In this document: piece by piece, positions 3,421-31,987 of the stretch
Layout: every line of letters begins with the position of its first letter
Position numbering within the stretch: position 1 is the first letter of the stretch
From: a virus
Direction: 5' to 3' (one strand)
DNA: 45,317 nucleotides
IMG/VR virus record: IMGVR_UViG_3300047319_000914
Location: 1 to 45,317 of that record
Program-made: the position numbers and the translations under genes
Notes under the pieces: generated by a model
What the model was told of the DNA's origin: nothing
The model's input: only the letters and a program-made list of their open reading frames with translations
Database searches by the model: none

Positions 3421-4090
3421 TGGTTGCCTCCATGTGTTGTTCCACGGCAGCAGCAATTTGGGGATAGCCGTTGTGCCGAAGGGTGGCGAGCACGGTTTCC
3501 AGCGTCATTTCCCCGGCCTGAATGGTGTTGACGTTGCTCTGAACCATCCAGCACTCAAAGGGATTGAGGGGTCCGAACGTGGTTTTCGCCAGGTACTCCT
3601 GGTGCCACTGTTTGATCGTGGGGATGACACGTTCGTTCAGGAACTGCTCGCTGGTGAAGGCTTCCTCTCCCCTCGCTACGCGATACCGGTTGATCTCTGC
3701 ACGGGTGGTCTCTCGTGCCGTCTCGTCGAAGTACTCGAGGATGGCCCAGTTGCAGTCTTCCTCGAACTCCCACACATAGGCCACTCCCGCGTCTTCCTCA
3801 ACGAAGAACGCCGGCTCTCCCCCAAGCCCCTCATGACCGAAAGGCAAATCGGCCGGCGGCTTCTGGGTCACCAACAGATAGCCACCGTGGCCAGCCGTGC
3901 CGACGTACCAGGCCGGTCCCCACTTCGTCTCGATCTTCTTACTCTGTTGCCACCTTCCCCACCCGACCATGCTGCTCGCGGCCAGGGCTCGCGGATTCAG
4001 CAGCTTCTTGTCCTCGTTGAAGCGAAGGGTGACCTTGGTGGCCTTGCCGTTCTCGGTGTTGTAACCATGGACACGTAGAATGCGGTTCAT
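3401..4090 (-). CDS. DUF7007-like protein
   Basis: 229 residues. The segment WGPAWYVGTAGHGGYLLVTQ with a later FFVEEDAGVAYVWEFEEDCNW resembles the DUF7007 domain found in phage and plasmid proteins, in which a His-Gly-Gly loop precedes an acidic, aromatic region. The identification is by recall of the pattern. The C-terminal third is helical (FLNERVIPTIKQWHQEYL, then a helix ending in EQHMEA). Function of the family is unknown to me. Confidence 0.6.
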   Translation of the reverse strand: MNRILRVHGYNTENGKATKVTLRFNEDKKLLNPRALAASSMVGWGRWQQSKKIETKWGPAWYVGTAGHGGYLLVTQKPPADLPFGHEGLGGEPAFFVEEDAGVAYVWEFEEDCNWAILEYFDETARETTRAEINRYRVARGEEAFTSEQFLNERVIPTIKQWHQEYLAKTTFGPLNPFECWMVQSNVNTIQAGEMTLETVLATLRHNGYPQIAAAVEQHMEATSEQVST

Positions 4091-4107
4091 TGCGAGGCCC
4101 CTTTATT

Positions 4108-4692
4108 TCATGCTGACGCTTTAGCGTCACCTGGAACGTAGTTTTCGACGTGAATGAAGTCGGTCTTGATCTGACGACACTTCCCCTTCCACATCACCTT
4201 GCGACGCCGACTCGTCTTCATGTCCTCCATGCCGTCGAAGTCCGACCCCTCATAGCGGTCGAGGTACTTATCAACCTCGATCTTGGGGGGAGCGTTGGGC
4301 TTGGTGCCGTCGAAGTACACATCGATGGACGAGCCCATCGAATATGAATGCGACCGCACCCAGAACTTGACGCCGGGGAACTTACGGGCCAGCTTCTCCC
4401 GTAGCAGCTTCGCGAGGTTGACCGTGCTGAGGTAGCCCCAGTCGTCGTTGGCCTTGTCCGTGTAGACACGGGCGAAGTGAGCCCGGATAAGCTCGGACTC
4501 GTCGTCCTGCTTGGTTTCTTCCAGGCGGTCGGCCAGTGCCAACCAGGCCCCCTCGTCCTCGATGTTGTCCAGTGCCGGCTCAAGGAGCAGTTGCTCGGTG
4601 ATGTCCGGCTCGAACTCCAGGTACTCCTTGAAGGCCGTGGGCGGGTCGAGTCTCTCGTACAGTACGTGATAGATGAACCAGAACTTGTCCAT
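4108..4692 (-). CDS. Protein with repeat-companion-like and LPD29-like regions
   Basis: 194 residues. Residues about 45-70 read DEGAWLALADRLEE then ESELIRAHF, close to the TIGR02996 repeat-companion pattern (ALADWLEE...AELIR) that is abundant in Gemmata-type planctomycetes. Residues about 95-155 read RKFPGVKFWVRSHSYSMG, then SIDVYFDG and FDGMEDM, the hallmark order of the large polyvalent protein-associated domain 29 (LPD29). Both calls rest on visible motifs only. The combination fits a phage of a planctomycete. Function unknown. Confidence 0.65.
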   Translation of the reverse strand: MDKFWFIYHVLYERLDPPTAFKEYLEFEPDITEQLLLEPALDNIEDEGAWLALADRLEETKQDDESELIRAHFARVYTDKANDDWGYLSTVNLAKLLREKLARKFPGVKFWVRSHSYSMGSSIDVYFDGTKPNAPPKIEVDKYLDRYEGSDFDGMEDMKTSRRRKVMWKGKCRQIKTDFIHVENYVPGDAKASA

Positions 4693-5757: not shown

Positions 5758-6300
5758 TTAGTCCAGGTGGACCTCGTCCAGATCCTCAACCTCTTCCGCC
5801 GTCGAGTTGGCCATACGAAACACGAACCGATACATGTCGTCGTCGTTCTCGTCGGCCCGACGTAGCGTGCTTACCGCCTGCATGCCTACGGCCTTGAAGA
5901 AGTGCTGAGCATCGAGCAGACGTTCGTTGACGTCGATACACACACGAGTCCGACGGTGACTGGACAGCTTGCTGATGAGCTTGTCCATCATTTGACGGCC
6001 GACGCCCTTCCTACGGAACTCACTGTCCACGGTCACACGGAGCAACTCGAGCTTGTGCTTGTGCAACTCGTAGATCATGAAGCCCAGCACCTTGCCCTCC
6101 GGGCCGTGCATGCCACCAATTGCCTCAGCAACCATGCCGATGGTGTTGCGTTGACGGAGAGCGTGGAGGAAGCGTTCCTCATTCCACTGAGTGGGCAGAG
6201 CCGCCGCGGTTTCCATTTGCAGAACCTCGGGCATGTCGCGGCGGATCATCCAGCGGATGTGGACCTTGAGTTCCTGCTTCAGCATCGATGTACGTACCAT
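5758..6300 (-). CDS. GNAT-family N-acetyltransferase
   Basis: 180 residues. The acetyl-CoA binding signature is present as VDSEFRRKGVGRQMM (R-x-x-G-x-G, about residues 97-111), preceded by the strand ELLRVTV and followed by VCIDVNERLLDAQHFFKAVGM, the usual motif B region. The architecture resembles RimI-type protein acetyltransferases. The start at ATG 6300 has AAGGAG eight bases upstream. The substrate is unknown; phage GNAT proteins may modify host proteins or phage factors. The C-terminal tail is acidic (EEVEDLDEVHLD). Confidence 0.8.
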   Translation of the reverse strand: MVRTSMLKQELKVHIRWMIRRDMPEVLQMETAAALPTQWNEERFLHALRQRNTIGMVAEAIGGMHGPEGKVLGFMIYELHKHKLELLRVTVDSEFRRKGVGRQMMDKLISKLSSHRRTRVCIDVNERLLDAQHFFKAVGMQAVSTLRRADENDDDMYRFVFRMANSTAEEVEDLDEVHLD

Positions 6301-6376
6301 GAGCCTTCTCCTTGGCCTTTGGCCAGGTTCGGTGTGGGAACGGGTTATGTTTGGGGAACTTGGACGACAGTCCGCG

Positions 6377-6793
6377 TCAGACCACGTACATCCAGTGACA
6401 CTCCACCTTCTTACAGCCAGCGGCTTCATATAGCTCGGCGGCTGCTTCGATAGCGTCGTCGCCAATGGCGTCACTGAGGAGCGACGTGTTCAGTATCGCC
6501 TGATCGAACAACTCCTTGGTGTTGACACCGGGAGGAACGACGTACAGGCCGACAAACCGCTCGTCGGTGGCGAGAACTACCAGCCTGTCCTTACCGGGCC
6601 GTAGGTCGGCCTGACCCCTGACAATACCTTCGTCAATCTCTTGTTCGGTCCACAATGTCTCGTTGCCGTCTTGGCTGAGTCGATAGTAGTCATCGACAGC
6701 AATGACTTCGTAGACCCTACACAGCACGTCACCGACCTTGTACTTCTTGGACTCCTTGCGGTTGCACGGCATGGTTTGTTGGGGGATGTTCAA
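6377..6793 (-). CDS. Hypothetical protein, TTG start
   Basis: 138 residues. TTG at 6793 is favoured because AAGGAGG lies six bases before it, while the in-frame ATG further on has no site. The start is inside the end of the zinc-ribbon gene. Contains KKYKVGDVLCRVYEVIAV, a KVGD-type strand-turn, and QADLRPGKDRLVVLATDE. The C-terminus is helical. No family recognised. Confidence 0.6.
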   Translation of the reverse strand: MNIPQQTMPCNRKESKKYKVGDVLCRVYEVIAVDDYYRLSQDGNETLWTEQEIDEGIVRGQADLRPGKDRLVVLATDERFVGLYVVPPGVNTKELFDQAILNTSLLSDAIGDDAIEAAAELYEAAGCKKVECHWMYVV

Positions 6794-12924: not shown

Positions 12925-13137
12925 TCACGCGGCGACACGACGGATGTCCCAGGTCTGGGCGTGGGTTTCCGTCAGCACGAACGTCTCGGCCAGCTTCCGC
13001 GTCTTGAACTTCTTGGTGCGGCGACGAGTACCGACGTAGTAGGTCAGTTCCCACTTGGCCGGTAGAAGGTGCGTGCCGATGATGACGGTGCAAGCGGCGA
13101 GTTCCAAGCGACTCAACTGGTTCTGGCGAATGAACAT
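12925..13137 (-). CDS. Hypothetical basic protein
   Basis: 70 residues from ATG 13137 with AGGAGG upstream. Basic strand-helix sequence: CTVIIGTHLLPAKWELTYYVG then RRRTKKFKTRKLAETFVLTE. The KFKTRKLAETFV part resembles the small domain seen at the ends of phage proteins that contact DNA. Unknown. Confidence 0.6.
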   Translation of the reverse strand: MFIRQNQLSRLELAACTVIIGTHLLPAKWELTYYVGTRRRTKKFKTRKLAETFVLTETHAQTWDIRRVAA

Positions 13138-13225
13138 GTGCCTCCTGCTTAGGGTTGTGGTTGGCATTCCCCGGCGAGGGAGGAGCTACGCTCAGCCCCT
13201 CCCCCATCAGCCGGAACGTCACCCA

Positions 13226-13492
13226 CTACTCGTTCCAGTACACTCGCTTGCAGCAGTTGCACTGGTGAACGCCGTAGGTCGCTTCATCCCCCGTCGAGTA
13301 GGTGAAGCGGTAGAGAGGCAGCTTGAGCGGTAGAGGCTCACCACATGAGCAGGAAAGAGTCTCGTTGGGCACCATCGGCTCCCAGCGGCAATCCTCGGGG
13401 CGTTCGATACCGAAGGCGACCGCGGCCTGGACGATGGGGTAGGGCGGGGCATTGCAGACGACTTCCAGCAAGCCCACTGATTTCTCTTCCAT
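13226..13492 (-). CDS. Small zinc-binding protein
   Basis: 88 residues. SCSCGEPLPLKLPLYRF and QCNCCKRVYW carry CxC and CxxC pairs, a probable zinc ribbon at the C-terminal half; the N-terminal half is hydrophobic (IVQAAVAFGIERPED). ATG 13492 is preceded by an AAGGAG-like site. Function unknown. Confidence 0.6.
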   Translation of the reverse strand: MEEKSVGLLEVVCNAPPYPIVQAAVAFGIERPEDCRWEPMVPNETLSCSCGEPLPLKLPLYRFTYSTGDEATYGVHQCNCCKRVYWNE

Positions 13493-23077: not shown

Positions 23078-23122
23078 ATGAACCAAGGACCAGTCCGTGA
23101 AAATTCCCCCTGGGCACACTGA
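23078..23122 (+). CDS. Short upstream reading frame before the sigma-like gene
   Basis: MNQGPVRENSPWAH with AGGAG eight bases before the ATG. Its 3' part overlaps the sigma-like start at 23097 in another frame. Either a translation-coupling leader for the sigma-like gene or an accidental frame. Confidence 0.35.
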   Translation: MNQGPVRENSPWAH

Positions 23123-23714
23123 AGCAAGTGTGCTCGAAGCGATTGAGAAGTCCGTCGCCATCCTGGCTCCGAGTTTTGTTTTTGGCTACTTCGACGTCGA
23201 AGACATCAAGCAAGAAGGGCGACTCGAGGCCTTCAAGGTCTTGGAGAAAGAGAAGTACGACCCCGACCGGCCGCTCGCCAACTTCCTCTACACGTCTATC
23301 CGCAACAAGTACGTCAATCTGCTGCGTGACAAGCTGCGGCGAAACGACCCTCCGTGTCAGCCGTGCCACATCGGCGATTGCTGCAACCCTACCGGTAACG
23401 CCTGCGAGCCATACATCGCTTGGCGAGATAGGAACGCCGCGAAGTCAAATCTGATGAGGCCGCTGGATCTGGCACATGTCGCGGATGAGAACGAACGTCG
23501 GACCAGACTGGAATCGACTGTCGTTAGCGACGTCGAGACAGACGAGATTGTCAAACTCATCGACGCGAAACTCTCAGTCGAACTCCGCTCCACCTACCTC
23601 CAGATGCGGGCCGGCGTTTCGGTCCCCAAGGTCAAGCGTAAACAAGTCGAGGACGCTGTCCGAGACATTATCAGGGGCTCCCTCGAATGGCAGAACACAA
23701 ACGAGGACGACTAG
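23097..23714 (+). CDS. Phage sigma factor-like protein, gp55-type candidate
   Basis: 205 residues. Residues about 28-65 read FDVEDIKQEGRLEAFKVLEK, then FLYTSIRNKYVNLLRDKLRR, close to region 2 of sigma70 factors (DLIQEG-LG--KA--KFDP---F-TYA---IR). A C-terminal HTH-like stretch (SVELRSTYLQMRAGVSVPKV) could be region 4. Between them a Cys-rich CQPCHIGDCCNPTGNAC insert is unusual. Starts at GTG with AAGGA seven bases upstream. By analogy with T4 gp55 it may direct transcription of late genes, perhaps at the GGTGTATT motif; that is inference. Confidence 0.65.
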   Translation: MKIPPGHTEASVLEAIEKSVAILAPSFVFGYFDVEDIKQEGRLEAFKVLEKEKYDPDRPLANFLYTSIRNKYVNLLRDKLRRNDPPCQPCHIGDCCNPTGNACEPYIAWRDRNAAKSNLMRPLDLAHVADENERRTRLESTVVSDVETDEIVKLIDAKLSVELRSTYLQMRAGVSVPKVKRKQVEDAVRDIIRGSLEWQNTNEDD

Positions 23715-24559
23715 GCCGGAGCGAGCGGAACTTCATCGTCTCTAACGTCGGTCGCCTTAGCGTAGATGAAATCGCCGCGAAGATTAATCGCACGGCGGAA
23801 ACCGTGGCTCAGTTCATTCGGCTCAACGTAAAGCCCGCTGATGCTAAGTCAGCCTTTGCTGAGGACGAGATCGAACAGGTCGAGATCCGGCAGTCACTTC
23901 GCGGCTGCGAGAAGTGGAAGCGGCTCACCCAGGAACTCACCAAAGAAGAAATCACTTTCTTTGAGGAGGAGTACATCAAGCTCATGACCCAGTTCAAGGG
24001 TGATGTGCTTGCCACGGAAGAGACCCAGGTCTTCGATGCCATCAAGCTCGAGATTCTGAAGAGCCGCAACATGATCGAGCGGCGTAAGGCCCGCGACGAC
24101 ATCACTCGCCTGGAGAAGATGCAGGAGGACTTCCTGAGCCAGTTCGGCGGTAACCCGTCGAACATGGACGACGACCAGAAGACCCTGGCCCTGAACATGG
24201 AGTCCCAGATCCAGGCCGCACGCTCGGCCGAGGCCTCACGCACGAACGATTACGTGAAGCTTCAGGAGCGTCTGGATGCCCTGATGCGGACCATGAAGGC
24301 CACCCGCGACCAGCGAGTAAAGCAGATCGAGCAGTCCAAGATTTCGTTCCTGGGCCTCATCAAGATGCTTCAGGACCGCGAGGTCCAGGCCTCTGAGGGT
24401 CGTCAGATGGAACTGATGAACATGGCCACTGACAAGGAATACGACCGCTTGGGAAGGCCCACGAAGTACGACGACGGCAACGAAGATTCCCCAATCCTAT
24501 CCGCCGAGACAGTTGACCTCGGCCCACTCGAAGACGGAGATGCAGAAGGTGATGCTTGA
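23687..24559 (+). CDS. Probable terminase small subunit-like protein
   Basis: 290 residues. N-terminal basic helix-turn-helix (RLSVDEIAAKINRTAETVAQF), a long charged coiled coil (EEYIKLMTQFKGDVLATEE onward) and an acidic tail. This HTH-plus-coil layout and the position ahead of the large terminase fit a small terminase subunit, which binds the packaging site. No direct motif proves it; a transcription or scaffolding role is the alternative. The end overlaps the next gene by eight bases. Confidence 0.5.
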   Translation: MAEHKRGRLGRSERNFIVSNVGRLSVDEIAAKINRTAETVAQFIRLNVKPADAKSAFAEDEIEQVEIRQSLRGCEKWKRLTQELTKEEITFFEEEYIKLMTQFKGDVLATEETQVFDAIKLEILKSRNMIERRKARDDITRLEKMQEDFLSQFGGNPSNMDDDQKTLALNMESQIQAARSAEASRTNDYVKLQERLDALMRTMKATRDQRVKQIEQSKISFLGLIKMLQDREVQASEGRQMELMNMATDKEYDRLGRPTKYDDGNEDSPILSAETVDLGPLEDGDAEGDA

Positions 24560-25061
24560 GTTCCTCTGCTGGCTTTTGGCCAGCCTGGTGGCGATGAGTT
24601 TCATTGAGTACGTGGCCCATCGGTGGCCCATGCACAGTCGGCGTTTGTATCGACAGTTCAGCTTCTTCCGTGGGCCGTTCGAGCGACATGCCGTGCTCCA
24701 TCACGGCCGGTACTTCAAGACGTTCGACCACGAACCGGACATCGCGGCCAAGTACATCAGCATGTGGCTGAATCCCGTCGAACACCTGATCGGGCTGTCA
24801 CCAGTTTGGCTGGGCATCGCCTGGTTCGTCTCCCTAATCGGTGGCATTACGTTCGCGGTCGTCATTGCACTCCACGCCATCGTATGGAGCATGGTTCACT
24901 TCGAGATGCACGAGCCGACAGACGGATGGCTCTCGCGTGCGTGGTATTTCCGCTATTTGCGGGAGTACCATAAGACGCACCACGACCATCCGGGCACCAA
25001 CTTCAACGCGGCCATTCCGGGCATGGACTGGCTGTTCGGAACCTATCGGAGACCAGAATAG
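24552..25061 (+). CDS. Fatty acid hydroxylase-superfamily membrane protein
   Basis: 169 residues. Histidine clusters of the membrane di-iron hydroxylase/sterol desaturase family are present: HRWPMH, HAVLHHGRYF, H-FEMHE and YHKTHHDHPG. Hydrophobic segments LVAMSFIEYVA and WLGIAWFVSLIGGITFAVVI separate them. Catalyses O2-dependent lipid or carotenoid hydroxylation in known relatives; substrate here unknown. An auxiliary metabolic gene unusual in a packaging region. Start between ATG 24552 and ATG 24540 is uncertain; the shorter is chosen for its overlap with the previous stop. Confidence 0.75.
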   Translation: MLEFLCWLLASLVAMSFIEYVAHRWPMHSRRLYRQFSFFRGPFERHAVLHHGRYFKTFDHEPDIAAKYISMWLNPVEHLIGLSPVWLGIAWFVSLIGGITFAVVIALHAIVWSMVHFEMHEPTDGWLSRAWYFRYLREYHKTHHDHPGTNFNAAIPGMDWLFGTYRRPE

Positions 25062-25063
25062 AC

Positions 25064-25549
25064 GTGCGGACAATTGAACTAACGCAGGGGCAAGTTGCTT
25101 TGGTGGACGACGCGGACTACGACCGTTGTTCCGCATTCAAGTGGTGTGCCAATTGGATCAAGGACCATTATAGGCCAGTGCGAACCGACTGTAGCGAGGG
25201 GAAGCGTCGTCGCATCTACCTTTATAGGTTCGTCATGGGGGTTACGGACAAGGACATTCTGGTAGACCACAAAGACGGAAATGCCCTGAATTGCGTGCGT
25301 AGCAATTTGCGAGTCTGTAATTTTGCTCAGAACAACCGCAACAGGAAGAAACCAGTATCTAAAGAGTCTAGCTACAAAGGTGTCAGGAAGCATCGACACG
25401 GACGCTGGCGTGCCAGCATCAAGGTAAATGGCGTGACAATCAACCTTGGAGTGTTTGATGTCGAGCTAGACGCGGCTCGTGCCTATGACGCTGCGGCGTC
25501 GAAGCATTTCGGCGAGTTCGCGAAGACCAACCTGGAGTCGGCAGCATGA
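25064..25549 (+). CDS. HNH endonuclease with AP2-type DNA-binding domain
   Basis: 161 residues, GTG start. LVDHKDGNALNCVRSNLRV is the HNH signature (H, N, N). The C-terminal part SSYKGVRKHRHGRWRASIKV with DVELDAARAYDAAASKHFGE is an AP2/integrase-like DNA-binding domain, the standard fusion for phage homing endonucleases. Mobile; likely a selfish insert between the hydroxylase and GMD genes. Overlaps the next gene by four bases. Confidence 0.85.
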   Translation: MRTIELTQGQVALVDDADYDRCSAFKWCANWIKDHYRPVRTDCSEGKRRRIYLYRFVMGVTDKDILVDHKDGNALNCVRSNLRVCNFAQNNRNRKKPVSKESSYKGVRKHRHGRWRASIKVNGVTINLGVFDVELDAARAYDAAASKHFGEFAKTNLESAA

Positions 25550-26586
25550 AGACCGCGTTGATTTGGGGGATTACTGGCCAGGATGGAAGCTACCTGGCGG
25601 AACTGTTGCTGTCAAAAGGATACAACGTAATTGGCGTCGCTCGCCGCGTTTCTGTTCCAACTGACGTGCGAATCCGTCACTTGTTGCCCAATGAGCATTT
25701 CAAGGTTGTCGATGGTGATGTCACTGACGCAATGTGCGTCTATCGTCTAATCGTTGACCACGATCCGGATGAAACATACAATCTTTCGGCTCAGAGCCAC
25801 GTCAAGATTTCCTTTGACGAAGCCTGTCACACCTGGGACGTGACGGCGAAGGGTGCCCTCAACATCCTCGAGGCGATTCGCCATTCCACCCGACCTCAGG
25901 CTATTCGCTTCTACCAGGCGAGCAGCAGTGAGATGTTTGGGGCGTCGTATTCCCTCCGCTGGACCGAACGCGGCACTCACAGCTATAACGCGACAACGGA
26001 CCCTCTCGAGGGGGTTTACACAGAGGTCGCGTTTCAGGACGAGGCTACTCCTTTCGCTCCCAACTCTCCCTACGCCATCGCCAAGCTCGCCGCCCACAAT
26101 GCGGTCCGAGTCTATCGGGAGGCCTATGGTCTCCACGCTAGTTCCGGCATCCTCTTCAATCACGAGAGCGAACGCCGCGGAGAGAACTTCGTCACGCGGA
26201 AAATCAGTAAGTACGTGGCGAACCTGCCCTTCCCGCTTGAGAAGCTACGTTTGGGCAACCTTGAGGCCTGTCGTGACTGGGGCCACGCTGAAGACTTCGT
26301 CAAGGCTATGTGGTTGATGCTTCAGCAGGAAAAGCCTGATGACTACGTAGTGGCCACGGGAGAGACGCACACGGTCCAGGACTTCCTAAAAGCAGCATTC
26401 GAGGTCGTTGGCATTCATGATCCGACGCCTCACTGGCAGCAAGACAGCACCCTGTATCGGCCGTGCGAGGTCAACTTCCTGAGGGGAGACGCGAGCAAAG
26501 CCCGCAAGGTTTTGGGCTGGGAGCCCAAGATCGACTTCAGCAGCCTTGTCAAGCGAATGGTGTTATCTGATATGTGGGCACGATGA
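25546..26586 (+). CDS. gmd: GDP-mannose 4,6-dehydratase
   Basis: 346 residues. NAD(P)-binding GITGQDGSYLAE at residues 9-20, the catalytic Ser-Ser-Ser-Glu (SSSEMFG, about 125-131) and YAIAK (YxxxK, about 176-180). GILFNHESERRGENFVTRKI is diagnostic of Gmd. Converts GDP-mannose to GDP-4-keto-6-deoxymannose, a precursor of fucose and rhamnose sugars, so it may alter capsule or lipopolysaccharide, or feed glycosylation of DNA or virion. About 30 extra residues lie between SSSEMFG and the YxxxK (TERGTHSYNATTDPLEGVYT region), unlike the usual short loop. Confidence 0.9.
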   Translation: MKTALIWGITGQDGSYLAELLLSKGYNVIGVARRVSVPTDVRIRHLLPNEHFKVVDGDVTDAMCVYRLIVDHDPDETYNLSAQSHVKISFDEACHTWDVTAKGALNILEAIRHSTRPQAIRFYQASSSEMFGASYSLRWTERGTHSYNATTDPLEGVYTEVAFQDEATPFAPNSPYAIAKLAAHNAVRVYREAYGLHASSGILFNHESERRGENFVTRKISKYVANLPFPLEKLRLGNLEACRDWGHAEDFVKAMWLMLQQEKPDDYVVATGETHTVQDFLKAAFEVVGIHDPTPHWQQDSTLYRPCEVNFLRGDASKARKVLGWEPKIDFSSLVKRMVLSDMWAR

Positions 26587-26831
26587 GCTTCTTCGACCCG
26601 TCTACGGCCTGGCTCAACACCTGTGTTGTCTTAACGGTCTTCTGCGTCGCAGTTGACGTTGCCATGAGGTTGATAGAGCGTCGCTGGCGGGAACCCAATG
26701 GAAAAACGCGACTACACAGACCCACGCTACAAGAAGTGGCGAAAGGCCGTATACGTTCGCGACAAGTTCCGATGCCAGATGCCAGGGTGTGCTCGCTCTT
26801 GCAGAAAGATGAATGCTCACCACATTCGTAA
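26583..26831 (+). CDS. Small membrane protein overlapping an HNH gene
   Basis: 82 residues, ATG overlaps the Gmd stop as ATGA. AWLNTCVVLTVFCVAVDVAM is a membrane helix, followed by RLIERRWREPNGKTRLHRP. The last 45 codons overlap the start of the HNH gene in another frame, so the true end may be subject to error. Function unknown. Confidence 0.45.
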   Translation: MSFFDPSTAWLNTCVVLTVFCVAVDVAMRLIERRWREPNGKTRLHRPTLQEVAKGRIRSRQVPMPDARVCSLLQKDECSPHS

Positions 26832-27036
26832 GTGGGCCTCTTTCCCAGAGCTTCGTTTCATAGTTTCCAACGGCGTTACGTTATGCCGCATTTGTCACGA
26901 CAAGATCAAGAACTTGGAAGAGGAGTATGAAGGCATGTTCCTCCGCATTGTCACCGGAAAGTCCGCCGGGTCGGTCAATCTCCGACTTCGGCTCATGATG
27001 ACGAGATATGAAGAAGGAAATCGAAGAGAAGGATAA
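26698..27036 (+). CDS. HNH endonuclease of packaging type
   Basis: 112 residues. KKWRKAVYVRDKFRCQMPGC, then NAHHIRKWASFPEL and NGVTLCRICHDKI give the CxxxC-AHHI-N-CxxCH pattern of small HNH enzymes. In several phages an HNH protein next to the terminase is needed for packaging-site cleavage; that role fits this position directly upstream of ERCC4-type and terminase genes. Confidence 0.8.
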   Translation: MEKRDYTDPRYKKWRKAVYVRDKFRCQMPGCARSCRKMNAHHIRKWASFPELRFIVSNGVTLCRICHDKIKNLEEEYEGMFLRIVTGKSAGSVNLRLRLMMTRYEEGNRREG

Positions 27037-27520
27037 GTACCTCGTACTCCGCGACTCTCACGAGAAGGCTGGGTATGGATGGCTCTTTGAGCCTTCTGAT
27101 AATTGTGCGGGCACACTCGAGCGGAAGCTCAAGACCGGCGACTACTCGCTTGATGGGTATTACGACAACAATATTTTCGTGATTGAACGCAAAGGTTCCG
27201 TCGCGGAGTTCGTTGGCAACATCACCCAGAAGGACAAGTGGGACGACTTCAAGAAGGAGTTGATCCGGCTCGAAGAGTTCAAGCATCCTTTCATCATCCT
27301 CGAGTTCCCCTTTTCCCTGCTCATGACATACCCTATTGGGTCCAATCTTCCTCGGGGACTTTGGGACAAAACTAGGGTCAAACCTGCCTTCATTTTGAAG
27401 CGGCTCCTCGAAATCGAGATCCACTTCAAGACCAAAATCATCTGTGCCGAGACCTCCGACAACTCCCGCTCGGTCGCCGCCAGTCTTTTCAAACGGATCG
27501 TCGAGAATGCCAAGCCTTAA
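27008..27520 (+). CDS. ERCC4/XPF-type nuclease
   Basis: 170 residues. GDYSLDGYYDNNIFVIERKG with SVAEFVGNI matches the ERCC4 nuclease core (GDY...VIERKxxxD). The Glu-Arg-Lys triad is the catalytic part. It acts on DNA ends or branched structures in relatives. Overlaps the large terminase start, hence probably translated with it and perhaps involved in processing DNA for packaging (inference). Confidence 0.75.
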   Translation: MKKEIEEKDKYLVLRDSHEKAGYGWLFEPSDNCAGTLERKLKTGDYSLDGYYDNNIFVIERKGSVAEFVGNITQKDKWDDFKKELIRLEEFKHPFIILEFPFSLLMTYPIGSNLPRGLWDKTRVKPAFILKRLLEIEIHFKTKIICAETSDNSRSVAASLFKRIVENAKP

Positions 27521-29612
27521 AGCGTTGCCCAAGGTAGCTGATGCTGCCTGGGAACGACAGTTCGTCAACAACTTCTGGATGGGGCTTGGTGACACTTCCA
27601 AGATCGAGGTTGCCAATCCGTTCTTCGTTACTCGCTCTGAGTACGAGATTGAGAACCCGCACGTCTTCGTCCTGGAGTTGATGCGGAAGCCGGAACACTT
27701 CTTCTTCACTGCCAAGCACGTCTTCAACAAGATCCTGCCGCCCTTGCAGCTTGCCATCTTGCGAGAGCTTTGGATACGGCCGTTCCCCATGCTCCTCGGG
27801 TCTCGAGGCATGGGCAAGTCGTTCATCCTGGCGATGTACGCGATGATCCGGGCTCTGCTTTGCCAGGGCAGCAAAATCGTCATCGTCGGTGCCGCGTTCC
27901 GTCAGGCCAAGGTCGTCTTCGACTACTGCCAGGAGATATGGGAGAACGCCCCCGTCTTGCGTGACATGGTGGGCCAGGACAAGCGAAACGGCCCCCGCCG
28001 CGACGTTGACCGGTGCTCGCTCCGCATGGGTGACTCCATCATCATCGCGTTGCCCCTGGGTGACGGCACCAAGATCCGCGGTCAGCGTGCCAACATCATC
28101 CTGGCTGACGAGTTCGCCTCCATCCCGAAGGAAATCTTCGAGACGGTCGTCCGTGGTTTCACCGCGGTCAGCCAGAGCCCCATCGAGAAGCTCCAGCGGG
28201 AATCCCGCAAGGCCGCTATCAAGGATCTGGGTAAGTGGTCGGATAAGCACGAACAACTTGAGCAGGGAAAGCTCCTGTCCAATCAGACTGTCGTGTCTGG
28301 CACCGCCTATTACTCGTTCAACCACTTCTACGAGTACTGGAAGCAATACAAGGCCATCATCGAGTCTCGTGGCGACCGGCACAAGCTTGGGGAACTCTTC
28401 AACGGCGAAATCCCCGAGAACTTCAACCACAAGGACTACTCGATCATTCGCGTCCCGTACCAGAAGCTGCCCAAGGGCTTTATGGACGAGAAGCAGATCG
28501 GCCAGGCCAAGGCCACGGTCCACATTGGCACGTTCCAGATGGAGTATGGGGCCGTTTTCGCGACCGACTCGAATGGATTCTTCAAGCGAAGCCTTGTCGA
28601 GTCCTGTGTCAGCGGCAAGCCCCTGAACCCCATCGAACACCCGTCTTGTGGGCTCGTCAAGTTCAACGCTGTGCTCCGCGGCGACGTCTCTCGCCAGTAC
28701 GTGATGGCAATTGACCCCGCGTCCGAGCAGGACAACTTCTCCATCGTGATTCTCGAGCTTTGGCCCGAGCATCGCCGCATCGTCTTCTGCTGGACCACCA
28801 CCAGGAAGCGATTCAAGGCCAAGGTCAGGGCCGGGCTCGCCAAGGAAGGCGACTTCTACGGTTACACGGCACGCAAGATCCGAGAGCTACTCAAGGTCTT
28901 CTCCTGCCCACGTATTGCCATGGACTCGCAAGGCGGCGGCGTGGCAGTCATGGAGGCCCTCCAGGACAAGGACAAGCTCCAGGTCGGCGAGCGGCCCATG
29001 TATCCGATTGTGGTCGAAGATGAGCCCCGTGACACAGATGACCTCCCCGGTGAGCACATCATCGAGGTCATCAACTTCGCCAAGGCCGACTGGGTGCGAG
29101 ACGCCAATCACGGTATGAGGAAGGACTTCGAGGACCACGCCCTCCTCTTCCCCGAGTTCAATGCTGCCCGACTGAGCCTGTCCCTGGAAGAAGACAAAGA
29201 GACCGGCCGAGTCACGGTGGACAGCGAAGGTCACATCGAGAAGCTCTACGACACCTTGGAAGACTGCTTCCTGGAGATCGAGGCCATCAAGGACGAACTC
29301 GCGTCGATTGTCCACACCCAGACTGGCACGTCGATGCGTGACCGCTGGGACACTCCTGAGACCAAGGAGAAGGGTGGCAAGAAGGGCCGGCTCCGGAAGG
29401 ACCGCTACTCCTCCATACTCATGGCCAACATGGTCGGCCGCACCATGCAGCGTGCCCCTGTCGCTCCCGAGTACCAGGCCATGGGCGGTTTCGCTCACGA
29501 GCTTGGGAAGGGCAAGAAGACGACCAGTTCTTCCATGTGGATCGGACCTGACTGGTGGACCCAGAAATCCAACCGCCACCCGCAAACCTACGGGGCGGTC
29601 GTTAAACGCTAG
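27507..29612 (+). CDS. Terminase large subunit
   Basis: 701 residues. ATP-binding Walker A GSRGMGKS at about 96-103, Walker B IILADEF at about 196-202, and an RNase H-like nuclease with AIDPA (about 401) and IAMDSQGG (about 470). Packages DNA through the portal and cuts concatemers. The start ATG 27507 overlaps the ERCC4-type gene; a longer in-frame extension to 27444 is shadow. The motifs in order make the assignment firm. Confidence 0.93.
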   Translation: MPSLKALPKVADAAWERQFVNNFWMGLGDTSKIEVANPFFVTRSEYEIENPHVFVLELMRKPEHFFFTAKHVFNKILPPLQLAILRELWIRPFPMLLGSRGMGKSFILAMYAMIRALLCQGSKIVIVGAAFRQAKVVFDYCQEIWENAPVLRDMVGQDKRNGPRRDVDRCSLRMGDSIIIALPLGDGTKIRGQRANIILADEFASIPKEIFETVVRGFTAVSQSPIEKLQRESRKAAIKDLGKWSDKHEQLEQGKLLSNQTVVSGTAYYSFNHFYEYWKQYKAIIESRGDRHKLGELFNGEIPENFNHKDYSIIRVPYQKLPKGFMDEKQIGQAKATVHIGTFQMEYGAVFATDSNGFFKRSLVESCVSGKPLNPIEHPSCGLVKFNAVLRGDVSRQYVMAIDPASEQDNFSIVILELWPEHRRIVFCWTTTRKRFKAKVRAGLAKEGDFYGYTARKIRELLKVFSCPRIAMDSQGGGVAVMEALQDKDKLQVGERPMYPIVVEDEPRDTDDLPGEHIIEVINFAKADWVRDANHGMRKDFEDHALLFPEFNAARLSLSLEEDKETGRVTVDSEGHIEKLYDTLEDCFLEIEAIKDELASIVHTQTGTSMRDRWDTPETKEKGGKKGRLRKDRYSSILMANMVGRTMQRAPVAPEYQAMGGFAHELGKGKKTTSSSMWIGPDWWTQKSNRHPQTYGAVVKR

Positions 29613-29674: not shown

Positions 29675-31987
29675 GTGAAGAAGCCAGCCAATCCTGCCAC
29701 CAAGCCTGTCGTGCCTGATGCTCCCATGTTCGTCACATGGAATGACGAGCGGAGCCAGGCACTCGCCTTTCACCAGGCCTCGCGGGCTCTTCAACGGGTC
29801 GAGCCTATCGTCCGTTCTCACGGTTCCAACATCTTTTCCGACATCGCCCCCGGTAACGTCTCGATCCGCGACGGTTTCGACCGCCAGGACTACGAGAACT
29901 ACCGGACGGGGGAAATGCTCCCGGTCAAGTCGAAAGACATCATGGCCGCTTGCCTACGGTCCTACGACCGGATTGGCCTGGTCAAGAATGTCGTTGATTT
30001 GATGGCGGACTTCGCCACCCAAGGCATTGGGCTCTACCATCCCAACGAGCGAATCGAGAAGTGGCACAAGGAGTGGTTCCGGCGGATCAATGCTCGCGAA
30101 CGCAGCGAACGGTTCCTGAACCTGCTCTATCGGACCGGCAACGTCCTGATCCGACGTCAGTTCGCCAAGATTCCCGTCAAGGTCGAAGAAGAAATGCGGC
30201 GGGCGACGGCCGACATGGACGCCGACATCCCCGTCCCCGACCAGAAGGTCGAAAAGCGGCAGATCCCCTGGAAGTACATCTTCCTCAATCCGCTCGCGGT
30301 CGAGGTCATGTCTGAGGAGTTGGCCGTCTTCGTTGGCCCCGACGCCTTCGTTTTCGGCCTGAAGATTCCCAAGCCGCTCGGCAACAAGATCCGGACCGCC
30401 AAAGGCAAGCATGAAAAGGCCATGCTCGCCAAGATCCCAAGCGACATTCGCGAGTTGGTCACCAGGGGAGAGAGTTTCATCCCCTTGGACATGGATAAGG
30501 TCAAGGCCTTCTACTACAAGAAGGACGATTGGGAAGTGTGGGCCAAGCCCATGCTTTACTCGGTCCTGAGCGACCTCAATCTGCTTCAGAAGATGAAGCT
30601 GGCTGACCTTGCCGCTCTCGACGGTGCCATCTCCTGCATTCGCGTGTGGAAGCTCGGATCGCTCGATCACAAGATCATGCCGACTGAGGTTGCCATCAAC
30701 CGTCTCGCCGAGATGTTGATGAACAACGTTGGCGGCGGCGTCATGGACTTGGTCTGGGGTCCGGAAATCGACTTGGTCGAGACCTCGACTGAAGTCCACA
30801 AGTTCCTCGGCAACAACAAGTATGAGCCGGTCCTCAACGCCATCTTCCAGGGCCTCGGCGTCCCGCCTTCTTTGGCAGGGAATGGCACGGGCGGCTTCAC
30901 CAACAACTTCATTTCGCTGAAGACGCTGACCGAGCGTCTCGAGTACGGTCGGCAGATCCTCCGCATGTTCTGGGAGGAAGAGCTTCGCATCGTCCAGAAG
31001 GCGATGGGATTCCGCTTCCCGGCCACGCTTGTGTTCGACCGGATGGTCCTGAGTGACGAGGCCGCTGAGAAGCAACTCCTCATCAACCTGGCCGACCGCG
31101 ACATCATCTCCTGGGAGTGCATCATCGAGCGATTCGGAGAGAACCCGGAGATTGAAGAGGCTCGTCTTCGTCGCGAGGCCCGCAAGCGGAAGAACGGTCA
31201 AATGCCCAAGAAGGCCGATCCGTTCCACGATGGGCAGCAAGACTTTGGTCTGAAGAAAATCTTCGCTCAGACTGGCGTTATCAGCCCGAGTCAGGCCGGC
31301 GTCGAACTGGAAGAGCAGGAAGAGGGAGACAAGTCCCTTCTCGAGCAGACGGCCGATCAGCAGGTGAAGCAGGCCAAGATCCAGAACCAGGCCACGCAAC
31401 AGCAAAACGACCACCAGTTCCGGACCGAGAAGCTGCAACTCAAGCATGGCGTTCACCCGGCCCAGGTTGCTCTTAATACTCCGACGCCTGGGACCAAGAA
31501 GGGCCAGCCCGGTCAGGGTCGTCCCAAGAACTCCAATGACACCAAGCCGCGGAAGCAGAAGCGGGTCACACCGCGGACCTCTGCGTCCTTCTTTGAGGCG
31601 ACCGCCTGGGCATCCAACGCTCAGGCCAAGATCCTCCAGGTTCTCGGCCCGGCCTATTTGAAGTCGGTCGGCAAAACGACTCACCGCGAGTTGACGGAAG
31701 AGCAGTCTCGTAACTTCGAGGAGTTGCGGTTCCGCACGCTCTGTCAGTTCGACATTCACGACGACCTCGACAAGTCCAGCGTCGTCAAGGCGGCGACGGG
31801 CTCACTCGAAGTGCCAACTCAGGTCATGCAACTGCTCCGGGCAACCGTGGCGAAGCACGTCGAAGCCAACAACAGCAAAGAGCCACCAGTCGAAACCCTG
31901 CGAGGTTATCAGGCCGGCGTCTACGCATTCTGGAAGGGCGAATACGAGGATGAAGAGGCCGGTGATTCTGCTGACGTGCTTTCGTAG
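29675..31987 (+). CDS. Portal protein
   Basis: 770 residues, GTG start. Position directly after the large terminase, length, and an SRALQRVEPIVRSHG start, with RIGLVKNVVDLMADF, then LLYRTGNVLIRR and long helical regions, fit portal proteins of T4-like or large phages. The C-terminus is rich in Gln and Lys (EEQEEGDKSLLEQTADQQV) and extends beyond typical portals. No short motif alone is diagnostic, so the call relies on context. Confidence 0.8.
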   Translation: MKKPANPATKPVVPDAPMFVTWNDERSQALAFHQASRALQRVEPIVRSHGSNIFSDIAPGNVSIRDGFDRQDYENYRTGEMLPVKSKDIMAACLRSYDRIGLVKNVVDLMADFATQGIGLYHPNERIEKWHKEWFRRINARERSERFLNLLYRTGNVLIRRQFAKIPVKVEEEMRRATADMDADIPVPDQKVEKRQIPWKYIFLNPLAVEVMSEELAVFVGPDAFVFGLKIPKPLGNKIRTAKGKHEKAMLAKIPSDIRELVTRGESFIPLDMDKVKAFYYKKDDWEVWAKPMLYSVLSDLNLLQKMKLADLAALDGAISCIRVWKLGSLDHKIMPTEVAINRLAEMLMNNVGGGVMDLVWGPEIDLVETSTEVHKFLGNNKYEPVLNAIFQGLGVPPSLAGNGTGGFTNNFISLKTLTERLEYGRQILRMFWEEELRIVQKAMGFRFPATLVFDRMVLSDEAAEKQLLINLADRDIISWECIIERFGENPEIEEARLRREARKRKNGQMPKKADPFHDGQQDFGLKKIFAQTGVISPSQAGVELEEQEEGDKSLLEQTADQQVKQAKIQNQATQQQNDHQFRTEKLQLKHGVHPAQVALNTPTPGTKKGQPGQGRPKNSNDTKPRKQKRVTPRTSASFFEATAWASNAQAKILQVLGPAYLKSVGKTTHRELTEEQSRNFEELRFRTLCQFDIHDDLDKSSVVKAATGSLEVPTQVMQLLRATVAKHVEANNSKEPPVETLRGYQAGVYAFWKGEYEDEEAGDSADVLS

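Follow-up and report, generated by a model that had tools for sequence, protein, structure and literature searches.

What is a gene of the fatty acid hydroxylase superfamily doing among the packaging genes of a phage, and does it belong to the phage at all? The gene lies in a window of 45,317 bases, the virus record IMGVR_UViG_3300047319_000914 of IMG/VR, and an earlier note on this DNA had proposed that its product may remodel host lipids or pigments. Apart from fatty acid desaturases, few descriptions exist of phage genes whose products work directly on the membrane lipids of the host. The closest published idea concerns such desaturases in Arctic phages (PMC7300359), and the same study names GDP_Man_Dehyd as a viral auxiliary metabolic gene. 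The likeness is that of a phage membrane enzyme altering host membrane lipids; the difference is that the Arctic enzymes, by their description, add double bonds and are not reported as FA_hydroxylase members or in a packaging slot. No description of a phage FA_hydroxylase was found in the open-licence papers searched, although an earlier account may exist elsewhere.

The hydroxylase-family gene and its predicted protein

The gene is an open reading frame on the + strand at 24552-25061, exactly where the earlier note had put it. It runs from an ATG at 24552, before which stands AGAAGG, to a TAG at 25059-25061 and encodes 169 amino acids. Its start overlaps the stop of the upstream gene by 8 nt, and a gap of 2 nt separates its own stop from the next gene. 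Both its GC content (0.578, against 0.575 for the window) and its GC3 (0.771) fit the phage. In Pfam-A, the protein matched PF04116 (FA_hydroxylase) over the whole domain (profile positions 2-132 of 132, E 9.4e-10) with 39.5 bits, above the curated cut-off of 31 bits, and its relatives scored up to 62.9 bits. The His clusters were complete and in order, as had been claimed from the sequence: H23xxxxH28, H46xxxH50H51, H116xxxH120 and H140xxH143H144. These ten His correspond to the conserved motifs of the superfamily's di-metal site, and the loss of a ligand, which the earlier note had named as grounds for doubt, was not seen in the window protein. All ten are kept in 17 of the 18 distinct phage proteins aligned, the exception being the protein of contig L111, which has Q at the H120 position.

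Two hydrophobic segments, at about residues 1-23 and 75-120, together with the predicted model, agree with membrane helices and a fold like that of Scs7, the yeast fatty acid 2-hydroxylase. A profile built from the 18 proteins found Scs7 in the PDB (4zr0 and 4zr1) at E 4-5e-4 with the four His boxes in register, and the only two other matches were non-significant (E 2.2). The AlphaFold2 model of the window protein had a pLDDT of 83.5 and a pTM of 0.79. When it was compared with the PDB by Foldseek, Scs7 alone was returned at a probability of 1.00, with TM scores of 0.62-0.64, E-values of 0.04-0.08 and 18-21% identity over the structure alignments. A second prediction, made from a 4-sequence alignment, was poor (pLDDT 50.5), and the model had no significant match in a viral structure library. 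Judged by profile and predicted fold, Scs7 is the only credible solved relative. Both are helical membrane proteins with four His boxes that align in order, but the phage protein consists of the hydroxylase core alone and its ORF encodes no N-terminal cytochrome b5 domain; moreover, the second box is HFLLHGCHH in Scs7 and HxxxHH in the phage protein. According to a review (PMC10002949), the cytochrome b5 domain is N-terminal in animal, fungal and protist FA2H/Scs7 and absent in plants, FA2H depends on a di-metal centre built from its four His motifs, and yeast Scs7 has four TM segments. The fold does not fix the reaction, since the superfamily includes desaturases as well as hydroxylases (PMC9485055), and also carotenoid and sterol enzymes.

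Phage neighbourhood and the interchangeable slot

The packaging region that the earlier note had recognized was confirmed by the presence of the terminase large subunit (TerL, 27444-29612) and the portal protein (29675-31987), both on the + strand, as are all the neighbours that follow. Upstream of the hydroxylase are a sigma-70 region 2-like protein (sig, 23097-23714), a conserved neighbour recognized by Pfam and synteny, and a 290 aa gene of no known family (hth, 23687-24559), which is conserved by synteny in the lineage and forms the upstream flank of the slot. Directly downstream, the slot holds a second gene in the window, an HNH_3/AP2 endonuclease resembling homing endonucleases by its domain matches (25064-25549). 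The downstream border is a lineage-conserved GDP-mannose 4,6-dehydratase-like gene (gmd, 25546-26586), and an HNH protein (hnh, 26698-27036) and an ERCC4-type nuclease (ercc4, 27008-27520) are conserved between gmd and terL; all three were assigned by domain match and synteny. TerL matched INPHARED phages with only about 25% identity and the portal search there gave no match, so the lineage is without a close relative in INPHARED. The left half of the window is unannotated except for a GNAT acetyltransferase-like ORF at 5758-6474 on the - strand.

A scan with the gmd pair as query returned 80 viral loci, most of which keep the order sig, hth, gmd, hnh, ercc4, terL, portal. The interval between hth and gmd was empty in 47 of them, held a hydroxylase in 4 and held other cargo in 22, while the remaining 7 had no hth on the contig. 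L011, the first syntenic contig found, lacks both the hydroxylase and the AP2/HNH gene. The gene is genuinely phage-borne, since about 80 contigs of uncultured phages share the arrangement of its neighbours.

The other cargo included GT2, GT6, GT29, GT90, sulfotransferase-like (weak in L082), radical SAM/SPASM and HNH-like genes, as well as weak matches to Methyltransf_24-like proteins. Examples of this interchangeable cargo near the terminase genes are a GT29 sialyltransferase-like gene (L072, 5463-5978), a radical SAM/SPASM gene (L086, 4936-5970), a GT90 gene (L064, 3275-4408) and a sulfotransferase gene (L101, 2370-3101). In two relatives the slot is filled by a PF10520 lipid desaturase of the CarF/PEDS1 type (L024, 2022-2573, 146 bits; L147, about 3889-4458). 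The slot's other contents point to modification of envelope glycans and lipids, and, as the relatives swap lipid- and sugar-modifying enzymes there, the phage probably alters the host cell envelope during infection.

Homologues in other viral contigs

The earlier note had called such a gene rare in phages. This stood in so far as no member of this hydroxylase group was found among 50,697 GenBank phage records, but the gene is not unique, because at least 20 other viral contigs carry a homologue. Single-protein searches against PHROGs, NCBIfam, PDB sequences and INPHARED phages gave no match, and neither did a degenerate nucleotide pattern modelled on the C-terminal box; most homologues surfaced only by tracing the adjoining gmd gene. 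With the four hydroxylases from the slot as queries, 19 viral loci were found, which brought the total, with L002 and the window, to 21 contigs and 18 distinct hydroxylase proteins. The order hth-hydroxylase-gmd occurs in 13 contigs, with a methyltransferase-like gene before gmd in two of these and a weak sulfotransferase-like gene there in one. In 5 contigs the hydroxylase stands between a ClpP-like protease gene and terL. L111 is an unrelated phage with the hydroxylase between TerL and an HK97-type portal, and L002 is another unrelated phage, of 107 kb, whose hydroxylase has 44% identity and is followed directly 3' by an HNH gene of another kind. Members of the clade recur in no fewer than three phage lineages that are unrelated to one another, two of which have the gene close to terminase genes.

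For close copies, pairwise dN/dS was 0.05-0.17, which applies to the relatives, as the window protein is too divergent for dS. These close copies are under purifying selection. The gene thus has the properties of a phage auxiliary metabolic gene: it is of host type, lies in a genuine phage genome by synteny, and is kept by selection in the relatives.

Phylogeny and alternative readings

A tree of 50 rows placed all the phage proteins and one ORF of a Nostoc plasmid in one clade (99/97 support), inside which the window, L002 and L111 form a subclade (98/91). A phage-only clade excluding the Nostoc ORF was not rejected (p-AU 0.33). This ORF, on plasmid pNsp_f of Nostoc sp. ATCC 53789, encodes 170 aa and is the sole cellular sequence found within the clade. 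It lies at 7995-8507 of L117, corresponding to about 12974-13486 of NZ_CP046709.1, and is absent from the plasmid's gene table; in contrast to the phage genes it is plasmid-borne, and the features listed in its surroundings include no phage structural gene. The bacterial rows came from a few genome loci, from samples of Elusimicrobiota and Pseudomonadota, and from plasmids, and NCBIfam assigned them no names. The phylogeny suggested earlier for finding a bacterial donor gave a phage clade with one plasmid member, and a donor may lie outside the few groups sampled. A planctomycete host or a sterol or hopanoid substrate, at which the earlier note had hinted, finds nothing in the data in its favour, and for the host there is nothing against it either.

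We consider it unlikely that the protein is a CrtZ-like carotenoid or isoprenoid hydroxylase, or a sterol or hopanoid desaturase, altering host pigments or polycyclic lipids. CrtZ-like and sterol enzymes do share its superfamily, and plasmid-borne bacterial homologues are annotated "sterol desaturase family protein". One of these, from a Burkholderia plasmid (WP_060081369.1, L118), has the same HxxxHH box and NFN...P..D..FGT tail, but it is longer (CDS of 705 nt) and falls outside the phage clade. The rows with CrtZ-like motifs (L122, L128, L134, L138 and L143, named by motif reading) are set apart on a branch of their own (100/99), which disfavours the pigment role raised earlier; the FA2H-like bacterial rows (L121 and L129, also named by motif) form another separate 100/99 branch, so the phage proteins group with neither. 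Scs7, a fatty acid hydroxylase, was the only PDB relative, and none of the window genes annotated here was recognized as a carotenoid or sterol gene.

It is also improbable that the protein is a desaturase or ether-lipid enzyme, a functional match of the PF10520 proteins. Such proteins are membrane His-box lipid enzymes that stand in the hydroxylase's slot in L024 and L147, and the superfamily's mixture of hydroxylases and desaturases (PMC9485055) would allow it. However, PF10520 is a separate Pfam family to which the window protein had no match at E up to 1, whereas it does match PF04116, and its profile finds the hydroxylase Scs7. A common slot is weak evidence of common chemistry because the slot's contents are so diverse. 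A PF10520 family search of 13 records gave no match, and its positive control also gave none.

The gene could be a selfish passenger that arrived together with the homing-type HNH endonuclease next to it and brings the phage little or no gain. An HNH gene is directly 3' of the hydroxylase in both the window and the unrelated L002, these two HNH proteins being unlike each other, and in L035 and L037 the slot seems, from reading the sequence, to be filled by HNH-like genes alone. However, 18 other contigs have the hydroxylase with no slot HNH beside it, purifying selection acts on close copies, and the gene occupies three different sites near terminase genes, all of which makes this explanation very improbable. 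Bacterial contamination, signs of which the earlier note had named as grounds for doubt, or chimeric assembly, for which the metabolic nature of the gene and its absence from the GenBank phages searched might speak, can practically be dismissed, as the gene overlaps or nearly abuts its phage neighbours, has a composition that fits the phage, and has homologues at the same place in independent contigs from different samples.

Proposed function

Modification of envelope lipids, close to the host lipid remodelling first suggested, appears to be the most reasonable role. We think it fairly probable that the product is a compact di-iron hydroxylase of the membrane, co-translated with late genes and acting on the lipid moiety of molecules in the host envelope. 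By analogy with FA2H and its four His motifs (PMC10002949), O2 should be activated at its di-iron site and a membrane lipid should receive a hydroxyl group on its chain. We infer the identity of the metal, the electron donor, the substrate, the timing of expression and the benefit to the phage as follows. An integral-membrane, O2-dependent di-iron enzyme would be made from the packaging-module slot, probably by co-translation with the late genes, and would insert in the host inner membrane. Its ten His would hold two irons at the cytoplasmic face and electrons would come from a host donor, so that a lipid of the host envelope could be hydroxylated on its hydrocarbon portion, most probably on an acyl chain. 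Together with the phage gmd product and the enzymes for sugar or sulphate modification encoded in the slot of relatives, the hydroxylase may change the envelope during infection. Possible benefits are receptor masking against superinfection or altered membrane properties ahead of lysis. No ferredoxin-type donor (PF00111) was found in 13 virus records, and a search of virus records for photosystem reaction-centre genes, as cyanophage signs, was negative; both results are weak, as most of the records may be fragments.

A broader reading is conceivable but rather doubtful: the interchangeable terminase-side cassette of this widespread uncultured lineage would remodel a glycolipid on the host surface, for instance to keep competing phages out. 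It would consist of the FA_hydroxylase, the CarF/PEDS1-type desaturase, glycosyltransferases and sulfotransferases with gmd as the constant member, and the hydroxylase would be a phage-specialised family.

The hydroxylase clade is compact and largely confined to phages, and its slot can also be filled by a lipid desaturase of the plasmalogen type or by enzymes that modify sugars. The slot may serve as a natural inventory of the enzymes with which phages modify envelopes, and, if the hydroxylase is active, phage control of host lipid hydroxylation becomes testable.

Other observations in the relatives

The PF10520 protein of L024 and L147 is a phage-borne candidate for plasmalogen-type chemistry. 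A "hypothetical protein" of Erythrobacter phage vB_EliS-L02 (OL955261.1, 2388-2834) has 36.5% identity to it. The TerL ORFs of L011 (7785-11156), L024 (5467-8640) and L079 (7808-11140) are much longer than that of the window, and their homology is split in two by an insert, as for an intein. L011 also encodes a release-factor-like phage protein (1386-2021, - strand), in which a GGQ motif accompanies the RF-1 and PCRF domains.
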